A stretch of 64,000 nt of DNA from Candidatus Marivariicella framensis. Lineage in GTDB: Bacteria; Bacteroidota; Bacteroidia; Flavobacteriales; Flavobacteriaceae. A program made the position numbers and the translations under genes. The stretch covers positions 1 through 64,000 of the forward strand of contig CAJJCT010000009.1 of NCBI GenBank assembly GCA_905182735.1, in the 5' to 3' direction. A model generated the notes under the pieces. It was not told the DNA's origin. It saw only the letters and a list, made by a program, of their open reading frames with translations, and searched no databases. Below, piece after piece: positions 5,348 through 34,290 of this stretch (position 1 is the first letter of the stretch; every line of letters starts with the position of its first letter).

Positions 5348-5395
5348 ATGATTTTAAAAAATACAATGATTTGGTGGACAATTCAAATAACTTGA
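5348..5395 (+). CDS. trpL: trp leader peptide with tandem Trp codons
   Basis: The frame from ATG 5348 encodes MILKNTMIWWTIQIT and stops at TGA 5393-5395; from the in-frame ATG at 5366 it is MIWWTIQIT. Two consecutive TGG codons (5372-5377) in a very short peptide just upstream of trpE and before an intrinsic terminator are the classic sign of ribosome-mediated attenuation: stalling at Trp codons when charged tRNA-Trp is scarce. The TGGTGG segment is also complementary (GGTGG/CCACC, 5373-5377 with 5407-5411) to the segment after the stop codon. Confidence 0.75.
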   Translation: MILKNTMIWWTIQIT

Positions 5396-5401
5396 AGTAG
5401 T

Positions 5402-5457
5402 GAAGACCACCTATATAAAAAACAAAAAAGGCTTGTCAACACGACAAGCCTTTTTTT
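5402..5457 (+). terminator. trp attenuator (antiterminator segment plus intrinsic terminator)
   Basis: The terminator is GGCTTGTC (5430-5437), loop AACAC, GACAAGCC (5443-5450), then T7, extended by an upstream A6 run; it ends 19 nt before trpE. Segment 2, GAAGACCACC (5402-5411), can pair either with the Trp codons (CCACC with GGTGG) or, through AAG-A-CC, with GGCTT (5430-5434) of the terminator's left arm, with one bulged A. So the 1:2, 2:3 and 3:4 pairings needed for attenuation are all present, although the 2:3 helix is short. Confidence 0.7.
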
Positions 5458-5475: not shown

Positions 5476-6876
5476 ATGAAAAAGTATAATTTAAAAACAT
5501 TTGAAAAAAAAATACTAGCAGACACCTTAACTCCTGTTAGTGTTTATTTAAAGCTTAGAGATCATTTTCCAAACACTCTACTTCTTGAAAGTAGTGATTA
5601 TCATGCCAATGATAACAGTTTCTCATACATATGTTTTAATCCTATTTCCTATATTAAAATACAAGGAAATGTTCTAAAGGAAACCTTTCCAGACGGAACT
5701 GAACAATTAACTCCAATTGATAAATCAGTTTCTATTCCAGCTAGAATAGAAAAATATATTAAAAGTTTTAAAACAACTAAAAACAGCCACAAGTTTATAA
5801 ATAATGGGCTTTTTGGTTATTTATCTTATGATTCAGTAAAGTTTTTTGAATCTATTAATTTAGAAAAAAAATCAAATAGTTTAGAAATACCAGAACTTTA
5901 CTATGCAGTATACCAAAATATAGTTGCTATTAATCATTTTAATAATGAGGCGTTTCTATTTTGTCATTGTTTCAATAATAAATCTAATCTTGAAGAAATT
6001 GAACAATTATTGACTGTCAAAAATTTTACAAACTATCCCTTTACAAAAATGGGGAATAGTAAATCCGCAATTTCAGATAAAGAATATAAAGATTTAGTAT
6101 CCAAAGCAAAAAAACACTGTCAAAGAGGCGATGTCTTTCAATTGGTTCTGTCTAGAAGGTTTTCTCAAGAATTTAAAGGTGATGATTTTAATTTGTATCG
6201 AGCTTTAAGAACAGTGAATCCATCTCCATATTTATTTTATTTTGACTATGGTGATTTTAAAATCTTTGGCAGTTCCCCTGAAGCTCAATTAATAGTCAAA
6301 GATAATCAAGCTGAAATTCATCCAATAGCAGGAACTTTTAAAAGAACAGGAAATGATGAAAAAGATGCAAAATTAGCAATAGAACTAAGTCAAGATCCTA
6401 AAGAAAATGCTGAACATGTAATGCTTGTTGATTTAGCAAGAAATGATTTAAGCAGAAATGGATCTTTAGTCAAAGTAAAAACAAACCGAGAGGTACAGTT
6501 TTTTTCTCATGTAATTCATTTAGTCTCTAAAGTTACAGGAATAAAAAAAGCTGAGACACCTACTTTTCAATTAGTTGCTGATACTTTTCCTGCAGGAACC
6601 TTGAGTGGTGCTCCCAAGTATAAAGCTTTAGAATTAATTGAAAAATATGAAAAAATAAATAGAGGTTTTTATGGAGGAGCAATAGGTTTTATGGATTTCG
6701 AGGGAAACTTTAATCATGCAATAATAATTAGATCCTTTTTAAGTAAAAATCATACTTTGTTTTATCAAGCAGGAGCTGGAATAGTTGCTGCATCAGACGA
6801 AGAAAATGAACTGCAAGAGGTATACAATAAATTAGGAGCCTTAATTAGAGCCCTAGAAATAGCTGAAAATATTTAA
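5476..6876 (+). CDS. trpE: Anthranilate synthase component I
   Basis: 466 residues, normal for TrpE. It converts chorismate with ammonia (from TrpG) to anthranilate, the first committed step to Trp. The N-terminal LLES motif (36-39) forms the feedback Trp-binding site in characterised TrpE proteins, so end-product inhibition is expected in addition to attenuation. The C-terminal chorismate-binding domain shows HPIAGT (about 281-286), ENAEHVMLVDLARND and GAPK near 377. First gene of trpEGDCFBA and 3 nt before trpG. Confidence 0.95.
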   Translation: MKKYNLKTFEKKILADTLTPVSVYLKLRDHFPNTLLLESSDYHANDNSFSYICFNPISYIKIQGNVLKETFPDGTEQLTPIDKSVSIPARIEKYIKSFKTTKNSHKFINNGLFGYLSYDSVKFFESINLEKKSNSLEIPELYYAVYQNIVAINHFNNEAFLFCHCFNNKSNLEEIEQLLTVKNFTNYPFTKMGNSKSAISDKEYKDLVSKAKKHCQRGDVFQLVLSRRFSQEFKGDDFNLYRALRTVNPSPYLFYFDYGDFKIFGSSPEAQLIVKDNQAEIHPIAGTFKRTGNDEKDAKLAIELSQDPKENAEHVMLVDLARNDLSRNGSLVKVKTNREVQFFSHVIHLVSKVTGIKKAETPTFQLVADTFPAGTLSGAPKYKALELIEKYEKINRGFYGGAIGFMDFEGNFNHAIIIRSFLSKNHTLFYQAGAGIVAASDEENELQEVYNKLGALIRALEIAENI

Positions 6877-25168: not shown

Positions 25169-26251
25169 TTAACTTTTGAAAATAGCTTGCTGATGATTTA
25201 TCGATTCTTGATGAATTGCTTTAAATATTCTTAAAATAAACTCCTCACTTAGATTTCTTTCCTCACCTTCAAGAATCATTTTACCTAAAATCTCGTTCCA
25301 TCTTTTATTTTGAAGAACAGCAACGTTTTTTGTTTTTTTCAATTCACCTATTCCCTCAGCAACTCTCATTCTATCTCCAAGTAAATCTAATAAAGATTGA
25401 TCAATTACATCGATTTTAGCTCTTAAGTTTTTCAAACCACTTTGATAACTTTCCTCAGTGGTTGTTAACTTTCGAATTCTCCAATCTTTCATATACTGAA
25501 TTAAAGTTTCAGGAGTAATTTGTTGTTTTGCATCACTCCAAGCGTTATCAGGATCACAGTGAGATTCAACCATTAATCCGTCAAAATTTAAATCCAGTGC
25601 TCTTTGACTTATATCGAAAATAAGATCTCTTCTTCCTGAAATATGTGAGGGGTCACATATAATCGGTAAATCCGGAAACTTATTTTGTAATTCAATTGCT
25701 ATTTGCCATTCTGGTTGATTCCTATACTTTGACTTACCAGAAGTTGAAAAACCACGATGAATAACACCAAGCTTTTTAATATCGGACTTATACAATCTTT
25801 CAATCCCTCCAAGCCATAAGTCAAGATCAGGATTTACAGGATTTTTAACTAAAACAATTTTATCTGTCCCTTTCAATGCGTCTGCAATTTCTTGAACTAT
25901 AAATGGGCTTACTGTTGATCTTGCACCTATCCATAAAACATCAACGTCTGCTTCTAACGCTAACTTACAATGATTTGCATTGGCAACTTCAGTAGCTATT
26001 AAAAGACCTGTTTGTTCTTTGACTTTCTTTAACCATCCTAAACCTATAGCTCCAACGCCTTCAAAATTTCCAGGACGAGTTCTAGGTTTCCAAATACCTG
26101 CCCTATATACTGTAACATCTGAATCTTTTAGTTCATGAGCTATTTTCAAAACTTGCTCTTCAGTTTCTGCACTACATGGTCCTCCAATAACCAAGGGGTG
26201 ATCAAGTTCAAAATCTTTAAGCCATTTGTTTAAATTAGTTTGATTTTTCAT
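25169..26251 (-). CDS. Bifunctional DAHP synthase / chorismate mutase (AroQ type)
   Basis: 360 residues. About 1-260 is a type I-beta (KDO8P-like) 3-deoxy-D-arabino-heptulosonate-7-phosphate synthase: GGPCSAET (18-25), YRAGIWKPRTRPGNFEG (about 48-64), VKNPVNPD and CDPSHISGRRD. About 268-350 is an all-helical AroQ chorismate mutase with LRAKIDVIDQSLLDLLGDRM. The fusion puts the first shikimate step and the Phe/Tyr branch point on one chain, where prephenate feedback is known for such enzymes. Last gene of the pheA-aminotransferase-tyrA operon, so the Phe/Tyr attenuator also controls entry to the pathway. Confidence 0.92.
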   Translation of the reverse strand: MKNQTNLNKWLKDFELDHPLVIGGPCSAETEEQVLKIAHELKDSDVTVYRAGIWKPRTRPGNFEGVGAIGLGWLKKVKEQTGLLIATEVANANHCKLALEADVDVLWIGARSTVSPFIVQEIADALKGTDKIVLVKNPVNPDLDLWLGGIERLYKSDIKKLGVIHRGFSTSGKSKYRNQPEWQIAIELQNKFPDLPIICDPSHISGRRDLIFDISQRALDLNFDGLMVESHCDPDNAWSDAKQQITPETLIQYMKDWRIRKLTTTEESYQSGLKNLRAKIDVIDQSLLDLLGDRMRVAEGIGELKKTKNVAVLQNKRWNEILGKMILEGEERNLSEEFILRIFKAIHQESINHQQAIFKS

Positions 26252-26268
26252 TTTAATACTTTTTTATT

Positions 26269-27123
26269 TTACTTAGTTTTTAATTCCTTTAAAACACTTT
26301 TAATAGAATTAGTTTTCTCAATTAAATTGTATATTTTTTTATAATTTTCTTTTTCTAAAAGGGTCTTAAACTCCTCTAAATTTGAAAGATAATGCTTTAG
26401 TGTCTCAAGAATATTATCTTTATTTTCTTCAAAAATAGAACTCCATGTTTCCGGAGAACTTTTTGCTAGTCTAACCGTTGAAGCAAATCCACTTCCTGCC
26501 ATAGCAAAGATAGCAGATTCATCTTTTTCTTTTTCTAAGACTGTTTGCCCTAGAATAAAAGAAGAAATATGTGAAAGGTGAGATACATATGCAATATGTT
26601 TATCATGCTCTTCAGGGTTCATTTCCTTCAAAATCATACCAATAGATTTGAACCAATCTAAAGCCCATTTCAATAGATTACTTTCAGTTTTACCTGACTC
26701 ACATATTATTTGAACTTTACCTTTAAACAAACTTTCACTTGCAGCCGTGGGACCTGAAAATTCAGTTCCAGCTATTGGGTGTGTGGCCAAAAATTGAGAT
26801 CTTTTAGGATGAGAAGAAACAGTTCTACAAATCCTAGATTTAGTGGATCCAAAGTCAATCACAAGTGTTTTATCACAAATCAAGTCTAAAACAGAAGTTA
26901 GTTGATCTGTAATTTGTTTAACAGGATAAGCAAGTAACAGAACGTCTAGATTAGTGAAATCTTTTTTTGAAATTACTTCATCAATCAACCCTGAATCAAA
27001 AGCTTGTTTTAAATGTAACTCTGATGAATCATATCCTAAAATAATTACATTTTTAATCGTTTTTCTTAACTGTATAGCTAAAGATCCACCAATTAAACCA
27101 ATACCTGCAACTCCTATTCTCAT
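26269..27123 (-). CDS. tyrA: Prephenate dehydrogenase
   Basis: 284 residues. N-terminal NAD(P) fold GVAGIGLIGGSLA (4-16); the catalytic histidine region ATHPIAGTEFSGP (about 113-125) and YVSHLSHISSF (about 178-188) are typical of TyrA. It makes 4-hydroxyphenylpyruvate for Tyr. No ACT domain is fused at the C terminus. Third gene of the aromatic operon, 2 nt after the aminotransferase. Confidence 0.9.
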   Translation of the reverse strand: MRIGVAGIGLIGGSLAIQLRKTIKNVIILGYDSSELHLKQAFDSGLIDEVISKKDFTNLDVLLLAYPVKQITDQLTSVLDLICDKTLVIDFGSTKSRICRTVSSHPKRSQFLATHPIAGTEFSGPTAASESLFKGKVQIICESGKTESNLLKWALDWFKSIGMILKEMNPEEHDKHIAYVSHLSHISSFILGQTVLEKEKDESAIFAMAGSGFASTVRLAKSSPETWSSIFEENKDNILETLKHYLSNLEEFKTLLEKENYKKIYNLIEKTNSIKSVLKELKTK

Positions 27124-27125
27124 AT

Positions 27126-28265
27126 TTATAAACGGTTAAGCGCTTCTTTTAATTTTGATTTCTCTAAACACAATGAAATTCTAATATATCTATCTCCTTG
27201 TGATCCGAATATTTTACCTGGAGTAATAAAAATATTTTTTTTGTAAAGTAATTCATCTATCAAAATATCTGAACTTTCAAGGCTATCTGGAATCTTTGCC
27301 CAAACAAAAAGACCAACTGCATTCTTATCATATACAGTATTTAGTTTTCCTGCTATTTTCCATGCAATCTCTCTTCTTTCTCTATAAACTTTATTTAAAT
27401 CATTAAACCATTTTCTATTGAGACCCAGTGCCCTTACAGCCCCTTTTTGAATTCCATAAAACATTCCCGAATCCATATTAGACTTAACCTTCAATACCGA
27501 TTTAATATTTATAGAGTTTCCAATTAACATTCCAACCCTCCAACCAGACATATTAAACGATTTACTCAATGAATTAAGTTCCATTCCAACTTCTAAAGCA
27601 CCTTTATGTGATAAGAAACTTTTAGGAGATTTTGTTAAAATAAAACTATACGGATTATCATTAACTATTAAAATTTTATTTTTTTTAGCAAATGAAATTA
27701 GTTCATCAAAAAAGATGTCGCTTGCCTCTGTGCCTGTAGGCATATGAGGGTAGTTTACCCACATTATTTTAACTTTAGATAAATCTAACCTCTCTAGCAG
27801 CTTAAGGTTAGGTAACCAGCCATTAATCTCATCTAATTCGTATAGTATTGACTTTGCTTCTAATAAATTTGTAACTGCAGAGTAAGTAGGATATCCCGGA
27901 TTAGGAATTAAAACTTGATCTCCTGGATTTAAAAAAGCCATACTAATATGCATTATTCCTTCTTTAGAACCGATTAATGGTAGAACTTCATTTTCAGAAT
28001 TTAGAGTTACACGGTAATGAGATTTGTAAAAATTAGAAATTTCTTGTCTTAATTCAGGAATACCTTGATAGCTTTGATATTGGTGAGCCTTAGAATCATT
28101 AACACTTTCTAATAAGGAAGAAATAACAGCTTTAGGAGGAAATAAATCTGGACTTCCAATACCCATATTAATAATTGGCTTTCCTATTTTAATTAAAGAA
28201 GCTACCTCTCTTAATTTTGAAGAAAAATAATATTCTTTAACATTATTTAGTCTATTAGCAGTCAT
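27126..28265 (-). CDS. PLP aminotransferase of the aromatic operon (class I/II)
   Basis: 379 residues from the ATG at 28265 (MTANRLNNVKEYYFS), chosen because the recognisable N-terminal helix begins there and the start lies just after the pheA stop. ATGs at 28280 and 28295 would overlap pheA by up to 29 nt. PLP lysine lies in SLSKSFNMSGWRVGM; other landmarks are NPGYPTYSAV and NDNPYSFI. Its position between pheA and tyrA suggests the final transamination of phenylpyruvate and 4-hydroxyphenylpyruvate. The fold also covers LL-diaminopimelate-type enzymes, so substrate is inferred from context. Confidence 0.85.
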   Translation of the reverse strand: MTANRLNNVKEYYFSSKLREVASLIKIGKPIINMGIGSPDLFPPKAVISSLLESVNDSKAHQYQSYQGIPELRQEISNFYKSHYRVTLNSENEVLPLIGSKEGIMHISMAFLNPGDQVLIPNPGYPTYSAVTNLLEAKSILYELDEINGWLPNLKLLERLDLSKVKIMWVNYPHMPTGTEASDIFFDELISFAKKNKILIVNDNPYSFILTKSPKSFLSHKGALEVGMELNSLSKSFNMSGWRVGMLIGNSINIKSVLKVKSNMDSGMFYGIQKGAVRALGLNRKWFNDLNKVYRERREIAWKIAGKLNTVYDKNAVGLFVWAKIPDSLESSDILIDELLYKKNIFITPGKIFGSQGDRYIRISLCLEKSKLKEALNRL

Positions 28266-28266
28266 A

Positions 28267-29097
28267 TTATTTATTTCCATTATTATACTTTCCAAAGACC
28301 TTAAGCTCTAATGTCATTATTTCTAAAATTGATTGTGCTTTTTCAAAAAAAGATGAGGAATCAAAAGTCACATCTACAAAAAAAGAATATTTACCTGGAG
28401 TTTCTATAATTGGAAGAGACTGGATTTTTGTTAGGTTAAGTTTGCAATCACTCATAACATTCAAAACAGTTGCCAAACTTCCTCTTTTGTGATCTAAAAT
28501 GAATTTTAGTGTAGCCTTATTATAATTAACTTTTATTGAAGATGATTTTTTTTGGATAATGACAAAACGAGTCACATTGTTACTTATGGTTTGTATCGAA
28601 TCTTCAAGTATATTCAAATCATATAGATCAGCTGCTGTTTTACTTGCAATAGCTGCTCTTTTATATATATTATTTGTAATAATTTCTTTTGCTGCATTAG
28701 CAGTGTCGTCTGACTCAACAAGTTTTATATTTGGATGATTTGAAAAAAATTCTTTGCACTGTAAAAGAGCCATAGGGTGTGAATGAACCTCAAGAAGATC
28801 ATCAATTTTTTGGTTAGGTAACGCTAAGAGTGAGTGCTGAATTTGATAATAATACTCACCAACAATATTAAGGTTGTTTTTGTCAATTAATGCATAATTA
28901 GGAATTATAGATCCTGCTATAGAGTTTTCTATAGCCATTACTCCATGACTTGAATCATTTTTTAAAATTGAAATGACTAAGTCATCAAAAGAACTACAGC
29001 ACTCAATATAAATACTTTTATTAAAATATGATTGAGCAACTGCATGATGAAATGAGCCTTCTATACCTTGTATCGCTATTTTATTTTTTTTTACCAT
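28267..29097 (-). CDS. pheA: Prephenate dehydratase (with ACT domain)
   Basis: 276 residues, monofunctional. Catalytic domain about 1-180: IQGIEGSFHHAVA (8-20), MAIENSIAGSI (about 62-72) and the TRF motif (NVTRFVII, about 174-181). A C-terminal ACT domain (about 195-270) has HKRGSLATVLNVM and ESLP-like QSLPIIETPGKYSFFVD, the usual Phe-binding regulatory site. First structural gene of the aromatic operon. Its ATG lies only a few bases after the attenuator T-tract. Confidence 0.93.
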   Translation of the reverse strand: MVKKNKIAIQGIEGSFHHAVAQSYFNKSIYIECCSSFDDLVISILKNDSSHGVMAIENSIAGSIIPNYALIDKNNLNIVGEYYYQIQHSLLALPNQKIDDLLEVHSHPMALLQCKEFFSNHPNIKLVESDDTANAAKEIITNNIYKRAAIASKTAADLYDLNILEDSIQTISNNVTRFVIIQKKSSSIKVNYNKATLKFILDHKRGSLATVLNVMSDCKLNLTKIQSLPIIETPGKYSFFVDVTFDSSSFFEKAQSILEIMTLELKVFGKYNNGNK

Positions 29098-29101
29098 AAA
29101 A

Positions 29102-29162
29102 CAAAAAAAAGTCCTGATTTATTCAGGACTGTATGTATATATTTTTTTTATTACAAAGTCCT
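29102..29162 (-). terminator. Phe/Tyr attenuator: antiterminator segment plus intrinsic terminator
   Basis: Minus strand: AGTCCTGA (29130-29123), loop ATAAA, TCAGGACT (29117-29110), then eight T (29109-29102), ending four bases before the pheA ATG. Just after the leader-peptide stop, AGGACT (29162-29157) is complementary to AGTCCT of the terminator's left arm and would form the 2:3 antiterminator. A CTTC within the leader codons can pair with GAAG near the leader's end as a weak 1:2 helix. Confidence 0.75.
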
Positions 29163-29219
29163 TCAAGCTTCTGAATAGAAGTAGAAAAAATTGTTGCAGT
29201 AAAAAAAGGTAATCTTCAT
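29163..29219 (-). CDS. Phe/Tyr-rich leader peptide of the aromatic operon
   Basis: ATG 29219-29217 opens an 18-codon frame, MKITFFYCNNFFYFYSEA, ending in TGA at 29165-29163. Five Phe and three Tyr codons in 18 residues, in clusters FFY and FFYFY, directly upstream of an intrinsic terminator and of pheA/tyrA, are the classical design of a ribosome-stalling leader. It would sense charged tRNA-Phe and possibly tRNA-Tyr together, matching an operon that makes both amino acids. It lies about 18 nt after a full promoter. Confidence 0.75.
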   Translation of the reverse strand: MKITFFYCNNFFYFYSEA

Positions 29220-29236
29220 CAATCAGTTTATAAGTG

Positions 29237-29268
29237 CAAATTTATAATCACTTTTGAAATAAACAAAA
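29237..29268 (-). promoter_or_regulatory. Promoter of the Phe/Tyr operon
   Basis: Minus strand TTTTG (29268-29264), 19-nt spacer, TAAATTTG (29244-29237). Full match to the Bacteroidota promoter, placing the start of transcription about 10-15 nt before the leader ATG. Confidence 0.7.
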
Positions 29269-34196: not shown

Positions 34197-34285
34197 GGAA
34201 GGATTTAATCACAAATTATGTGAAAAGCAACACTGCTTTAGCATTTTTTTATAGAGGGTGCAATCAGTCAAATCCTTCCTCGTTA
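34197..34285 (-). ncRNA. Likely SAM-II riboswitch with long-range switching helix, metK leader
   Basis: Minus strand from about 34285: GAGG, then GATTTGACTGATTGCA (34274-34259), CCTC, an A-rich linker, and ATGCTAAAG (34244-34236). This order and wording match the SAM-II aptamer as I remember it (GAUUU-AC-AUUGCA, A-rich, GCUAAA). GAGG/CCTC closes P1, and GCA pairs with TGC as the pseudoknot. Downstream, AAATCCTTCC (34206-34197) is exactly complementary to GGAAGGATTT (34279-34270), which overlaps the aptamer 5' side, so the two folds exclude each other. Two small hairpins lie between (AAAGCA/TGCTTT and CACA/TGTG). No terminator; control is probably translational. Confidence 0.7.
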
Positions 34286-34290
34286 GTTGT

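Follow-up and report, generated by a model that had tools for sequence, protein, structure and literature searches.

How is the operon pheA-aminotransferase-tyrA-DAHP synthase/chorismate mutase of Candidatus Marivariicella framensis controlled, and does the short region in front of pheA read Phe only or Tyr as well? We addressed this question in a window of 64 kb, which is the whole stretch of DNA analyzed, and in the corresponding regions of related genomes. The operon lies on the minus strand. The first gene, pheA (28267 to 29097), encodes a prephenate dehydratase with the Pfam PDT domain and a weak C-terminal ACT-like match; the next ORF (27126 to 28295), which overlaps pheA, encodes a class I/II aminotransferase (PF00155, Aminotran_1_2) that, judging from its gene position, is presumably an aromatic aminotransferase. 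They are followed by tyrA (26269 to 27123), which encodes a prephenate dehydrogenase with PDH_N and PDH_C domains and an NCBIfam PRK08507 match over the cut-off, and by the gene of a fused DAHP synthase/chorismate mutase (25169 to 26251; PF00793, DAHP_synth_1, and PF01817, CM_2). The Pfam assignments agree with the operon annotation proposed earlier from the letters of the DNA and its translated frames (here called the sequence-only reading).

The same reading had supposed that the leader gates the fused DAHP synthase too. A candidate for a second DAHP synthase in the genome, the other protein matching DAHP_synth_1 (PF00793), was rejected as a KDO8P synthase, and no match to the class II DAHP synthase family PF01474 was found in the assembly, which is 86% complete. 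The operon therefore contains the only shikimate entry enzyme found in this assembly, and the leader precedes it, as supposed. Polarity from the leader would be expected to extend onto the DAHP synthase gene.

The leader region (29268 to 29097, minus strand) is located between pheA and a divergent ABC-transporter ATP-binding gene, which runs on the plus strand from 29356 onward. It begins with a promoter-like element (29237 to 29268, minus strand) made up of TTTTG at 29268 to 29264, so that the outer boundary drawn earlier at 29268 is the start of this motif, and of the −7 box TAAATTTG at 29244 to 29237. The box is an exact match to TAnnTTTG, which mapping in F. psychrophilum identified as the −7 box of sigma-A (PMC9723704), and the leader ATG is 17 nt downstream of it. 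We deem the promoter to be of the Bacteroidetes type, and the transcription start is predicted from these letters. A match to five of the six promoter-box positions within 45 nt of the ATG was found for 69 of 73 leaders of the class, compared with 53% of shuffled controls.

The leader peptide ORF MKITFFYCNNFFYFYSEA (29163 to 29219, minus strand) runs from the ATG at 29219 to a TGA ending at 29163 and comprises 18 codons: ATG AAG ATT ACC TTT TTT TAC TGC AAC AAT TTT TTC TAC TTC TAT TCA GAA GCT TGA. Eight of the 18 are Phe or Tyr codons, and the five Phe and three Tyr codons counted in the sequence-only reading can be read directly on the minus strand. The frame, which is presumably translated, is thus short and enriched in codons for the end products of the operon, as expected of a classical attenuator. 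Folding with the ribosome placed at successive codons marks F5 to Y15 (FFYCNNFFYFY; 29175 to 29207, minus strand) as the putative control codons.

Between this leader and pheA, the first structural gene, lies an intrinsic terminator, AGTCCTGA-ATAAA-TCAGGACT (29103 to 29130, minus strand), with its hairpin at 29130 to 29110 and a run of eight T at 29110 to 29103, both as described earlier. The earlier statement that the pheA ATG follows after four bases needs correction, since the ATG, at 29097, comes five bases after the T run. This gene therefore starts almost on the T run, and this close spacing of terminator and start codon may affect translation after readthrough; in relatives, between 7 and over 70 nt separate the two (L008, L006, L020, and L012 versus L001). 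The short segment AGGACT found straight after the leader stop (29162 to 29157), and noted before as complementary to the terminator arm, belongs to a longer pairing stretch. This is strand 2, the 5′ strand of the antiterminator (AGGACTTTGT; 29153 to 29162, minus strand), which adjoins the leader stop and pairs with ATACAGTCCT at 29134 to 29125. The latter is part of strand 3 (29123 to 29134, minus strand) and overlaps the left arm AGTCCTGA of the terminator (29130 to 29123), so antiterminator and terminator compete for the same letters. In addition, the ViennaRNA fold predicts a 1:2 structure (29143 to 29207, minus strand), in which, on RNA free of ribosomes, the region of the Phe and Tyr codons folds onto strand 2. 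The RNA ending with strand 3 folds at −16.6 kcal/mol, and the predicted pairing of strands 2 and 3 is then 0. A 1:2 structure was found in some of the relatives only.

We put the probability that this region is a classical ribosome-mediated attenuator, reading charged tRNA-Phe and tRNA-Tyr and setting the expression of the whole operon, at roughly 0.87. If Phe or Tyr became scarce, the ribosome would stall on a Phe or Tyr codon, leaving the downstream strand 2 free to pair with the left terminator arm, and RNA polymerase would continue. With both amino acids plentiful, the ribosome would reach the stop codon and cover strand 2, the terminator would form, and transcription would halt before pheA. 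In the absence of a ribosome, the Phe/Tyr region would fold onto strand 2, which would also favor termination and provide basal termination. The pathway would probably be switched on only when the cell is short of Phe or Tyr. Comparative evidence beyond that of the sequence-only reading, set out below, supports its proposal of a leader for both amino acids; a response to Phe is to be expected from the leader codons, and a response to Tyr is suggested by them.

The geometry of the window leader was modeled by masking the ribosome at each codon in turn and folding the RNA up to strand 3. Strands 2 and 3 pair for every A-site position between F5 and Y15 inclusive; the pairing is lost at S16 and stays absent through the stop codon. 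A change of 3 nt in the assumed footprint moves this boundary by one codon. The aromatic run thus ends where a stalled ribosome would start to cover strand 2, and in most relatives the modeled switch point likewise falls at or beside the end of the run. In the window and most relatives, a stalled ribosome frees strand 2 and a terminating ribosome covers it, while in about one third of the leaders the final codon of the aromatic run already lies at the modeled edge of occlusion. In about 11% of the leaders the ORF continues past strand 2, so that a modeled ribosome at the stop codon does not cover this strand. Therefore, all classical states (1:2, 2:3, 3:4, and the ribosome at the stop) can be written down for the window leader. 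When the complete transcript is folded at equilibrium, the terminator (3:4) wins even with a stalled ribosome, and the switch must therefore act kinetically, during transcription.

Many leaders of the Flavobacteriaceae (e.g., L011, L015, and L019) have an ORF that crosses strand 2 and has a conserved tail (..ETLYV, TTGTATGTATAA). Strand 2 is coding in these leaders; in the genus of the window, the stop comes before it.

To what extent the anatomy is conserved was determined from the pheA genes of relatives, which were retrieved by genome search. A script scanned their upstream regions for three features: an ATG frame containing aromatic codons, a terminator 3′ of it, and a strand complementary to the left terminator arm. 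Among 94 upstream regions of the class Bacteroidia, a set in which one genome appears twice (L002/L031), an F/Y-rich leader with a terminator was found before pheA in 78, and in 68 under a strict rule that demands at least seven F/Y/W codons making up 30% or more of the frame. Five duplicate or doubtful rows were removed from the 78, leaving 73 curated leaders for the statistics. The leader extends from the genus to most Flavobacteriaceae, to further families of the order, and to families belonging to other orders of Bacteroidia. The remaining 16 of the 94 regions have no recognisable leader; in two of them (L050 and L051), another gene directly precedes pheA. None was recognized with the divergent pheA genes of two genomes, G040 and G053 (30% identity), or in the 21 regions upstream of prephenate dehydratase genes that a phylum-wide search returned, all from genomes outside Bacteroidia.

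The sequence-only reading would have fallen had relatives kept the hairpin and lost the short frame or its Phe and Tyr codons. We found hairpin, frame, Phe/Tyr codons, and antiterminator to be conserved together, within the genus and as far away as other orders of Bacteroidia. The compensatory changes that it had asked for are present as well and tie strand 2 to the terminator arm. The arms themselves vary widely (AGTCCT, GTCTCG, GTCCCG, TCCCGC, AGCCTC, GACCGC, CCCGGA, and more), and strand 2 follows them. Its average pairing score is 18.2 with the arm of its own leader and 12.5 with the arms of other leaders (z, 12.6), and none of 20,000 permutations of strands and arms reached the observed mean, in a comparison that is uncorrected for relatedness and in which the control, too, is raised by relatives that have arms in common. 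The pairing of AGGACTTTGT with ATACAGTCCT in the window is therefore backed by covariation. Spacing is constrained too, since the last aromatic codon lies 9 to 18 nt 5′ of strand 2 (the minimum of 9 nt being set by the script) and 10 to 15 nt from it in 63 of the 73 leaders.

If the RNA is an attenuator of this kind, which amino acids does it sense? Both Phe and Tyr codons occur in 72 of the 73 curated leaders, with Trp in addition in 32, and the 1701 residues of all the leaders include 372 Phe, 250 Tyr, and 35 Trp, counts that are favored by the use of aromatic content in choosing the leaders. An alternative, which we consider possible although on the unlikely side, is that the same attenuator senses Phe alone and that the Tyr codons are near neighbors tolerated since they suit a U-rich RNA well, or serve as slow spacers. 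A precedent speaks for it, as the Phe-Tyr-Phe leader aroR of C. glutamicum reportedly answers Phe and not Tyr (PMC11802643). The composition of the aromatic run argues against it. Its last eight codons comprise 294 Phe, 176 Tyr, 2 Leu, 2 Ile, 1 Val, 13 Ser, and 5 Cys. Of the 199 residues that lie one base change away from Phe, 176 are thus Tyr and 23 fall to all remaining neighbors together, where random one-base changes would give Tyr in about one of eight. This indicates that Tyr is favored as such, more than drift from Phe would allow.

Third positions tell a similar story of selection on the encoded residues. Of the 578 T[TA]N codons that stand in frame within the 36 nt closing with the last aromatic codon, 571 have T or C at the third position, compared with 68% and 46% in the other two frames, a bias that is partly due to the absence of stop codons and to the picking of aromatic-rich frames. 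Within the genus of the window, pairwise differences at codons 10 to 15 number 0, 6, and 20 at the first, second, and third codon positions, and are therefore mostly synonymous; the changes at second positions exchange Phe and Tyr.

The only leaders without Tyr, set against the general retention of at least one such codon, belong to one genome, G059 (L043/L077). Here the roughly 300 nt before pheA hold a tandem pair of complete attenuators (MNNLVSTFRFFGFFFFRKEGAMS and MNQNTQQNFSFFGFFFFKWKSEAVD), both with Phe and without Tyr codons, in front of an operon that lacks tyrA and in a genome without a PDH_N match. This coincidence speaks against sensing of Phe only, while the pair, which judged by its anatomy alone would work without Tyr, suits an attenuator for Phe only. 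The coincidence is qualified by G139 and G222, two further genomes without a PDH_N match, which retain Tyr codons, unlike G059. We therefore dropped the idea that the Tyr content of the leader tracks tyrA: the comparison does not discriminate between the two readings, since G139 and G222 keep Tyr and all three genomes have a phenylalanine-hydroxylase-like match. The pheA product of G059 is 185 aa long, without the C-terminal region.

The attenuator might also sense all three aromatic amino acids, in that leaders conserving a codon for Trp (e.g., YYNWFYFFF) would respond to Trp as well, because the operon supplies the chorismate for Trp. The Trp codons of those 32 leaders, mostly placed within the run upstream of the last Phe, are consistent with it, as is the single DAHP synthase found in the 86% complete assembly. 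We regard this extension as rather unlikely, considering that the leader in the window's genus has no Trp codon and that trpE has a Trp leader of its own. In the window, the latter (5348 to 5455, plus strand) has the frame MILKNTMIWWTIQIT, with two Trp codons, and stands before the trpE ATG at 5476; a promoter box, TATATTTG, lies just upstream, and the terminator is AAAAAGGCTTGTC-AACAC-GACAAGCCTTTTT. Of 18 trpE loci, 17 have leaders with WW or WWW, and of 14 hisG loci of the order, 12 have leaders with runs of His (L134 to L145; e.g., MFFNHHHHFTTLLK and MSFIQLHHHHFNTCTQAS), accompanied by terminators. Attenuation by leader peptides is hence in general use in the family. The window also holds a SAM-II riboswitch (34228 to 34287, minus strand; 69.9 bits) upstream of genes for S-adenosylmethionine synthetase and a sulfhydrylase-like protein.

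Riboswitches likewise use a terminator and a competing strand, and one could thus imagine that uncharged tRNA, a metabolite, or a protein controls the terminator, the short frame being incidental. This appears highly improbable to us. No curated Rfam family of riboswitches or cis-regulatory RNAs gave a gathering-level match between 28 and 30 kb, and none was obtained in a focused search; the most constrained part of the element is the reading frame, with synonymous changes at third positions, and the sequences of the arms diverge between leaders with only their mutual pairing kept. The closest known leader family, Phe_leader (RF01859), aligned over the leader stretch with 17.8 bits against a threshold of 55 (E = 1.1); at a score so far below the threshold, the leader is no member of RF01859, though it works alike. 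Finally, we give practically no credence to an artefact in which A+T-rich DNA yields short frames rich in Phe and Tyr, both encoded by T-rich sequence, and the hairpin is the ordinary terminator of an upstream transcript: the strict caller passed 0 of 470 dinucleotide shuffles of the pheA upstream regions and, of the 57 gene upstream regions of the 64-kb window, only that of pheA itself, the upstream neighbor is transcribed away on the opposite strand, and the same pattern stands in front of pheA across many families and orders, so that shuffles, window control, and conservation together rule it out.

With Phe and Tyr as the amino acids read, the consequences would reach beyond this locus. We see even odds that the element is an ancient attenuator spread through the class Bacteroidia and missing from Rfam, in which the charging of tRNA-Phe and tRNA-Tyr, joined in many lineages by tRNA-Trp, sets the shikimate flux via DAHP synthase. 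If so, shikimate entry and the Phe and Tyr branches would be under one switch, and the supply of aromatic amino acids would be coupled to translation in marine and gut bacteria. The 73 leaders are a ready family for Rfam. As natural variants that differ in the presence of Tyr and of Trp and in being single or in tandem, they are suited to study how attenuators read several amino acids, and the set offers a concrete test of whether Tyr codons truly sense Tyr.

Among known systems, leader-peptide attenuation is described mainly from Proteobacteria and Actinobacteria, and the papers we found contain only hints of it for Bacteroidota. Like the enteric pheL-pheA system, the leader has a short frame rich in Phe codons and, between this frame and pheA, an antiterminator and a terminator that exclude each other. 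The pheL frame of E. coli contains Phe codons and no Tyr, and the enteric leader reads Phe only; moreover, it controls pheA alone, whereas the Bacteroidia leader has Phe and Tyr codons and precedes one operon that includes tyrA and DAHP synthase. Leaders for several amino acids are known from E. coli ilvGMEDA (Leu/Val/Ile) and thrABC (Thr/Ile), in which, as proposed here, one leader reads several products of a pathway; the pathways are different and the sequences unrelated.

A parallel in function is aroR-aroF of C. glutamicum, where a leader with Phe-Tyr-Phe is reported to gate a DAHP synthase by ribosome stalling (PMC11802643, citing Neshat 2014; PMC4046766). It belongs to another phylum and gene order and has F-Y-F in place of a long aromatic run, and its response is to Phe, reportedly not to Tyr (PMC11802643).

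Within Bacteroidota, a putative attenuator before the same gene set was listed in 2005 for B. thetaiotaomicron (pheA > hisHb > aroA-aroQ > tyrA; PMC1173090, Table 7, from Merino's database); it is a database prediction, and the text of that paper neither contains the phrase "leader peptide" nor gives a Phe/Tyr content. A 2021 study of F. psychrophilum reported a structured 5′ element upstream of pheA, kept in other Flavobacteriaceae and without an Rfam match, along with general clues to leader peptides for amino acid operons (PMC9723704). Being located at the same gene in the same family, this is very probably the same element; the main text of that study gives no leader sequence, Phe/Tyr content, antiterminator, or occurrence beyond Flavobacteriaceae. 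The sequence-only reading knew of no described dual Phe/Tyr leader in Flavobacteriia. This holds for the Phe/Tyr leader itself, of which no description was found in the open-access literature, the part covered by our search; it does not hold for the element as such, considering the attenuator and the structured element listed for B. thetaiotaomicron and F. psychrophilum. The mechanism, then, is an already known one, and what is new is the Phe/Tyr leader, its conservation throughout the class, and its geometry.
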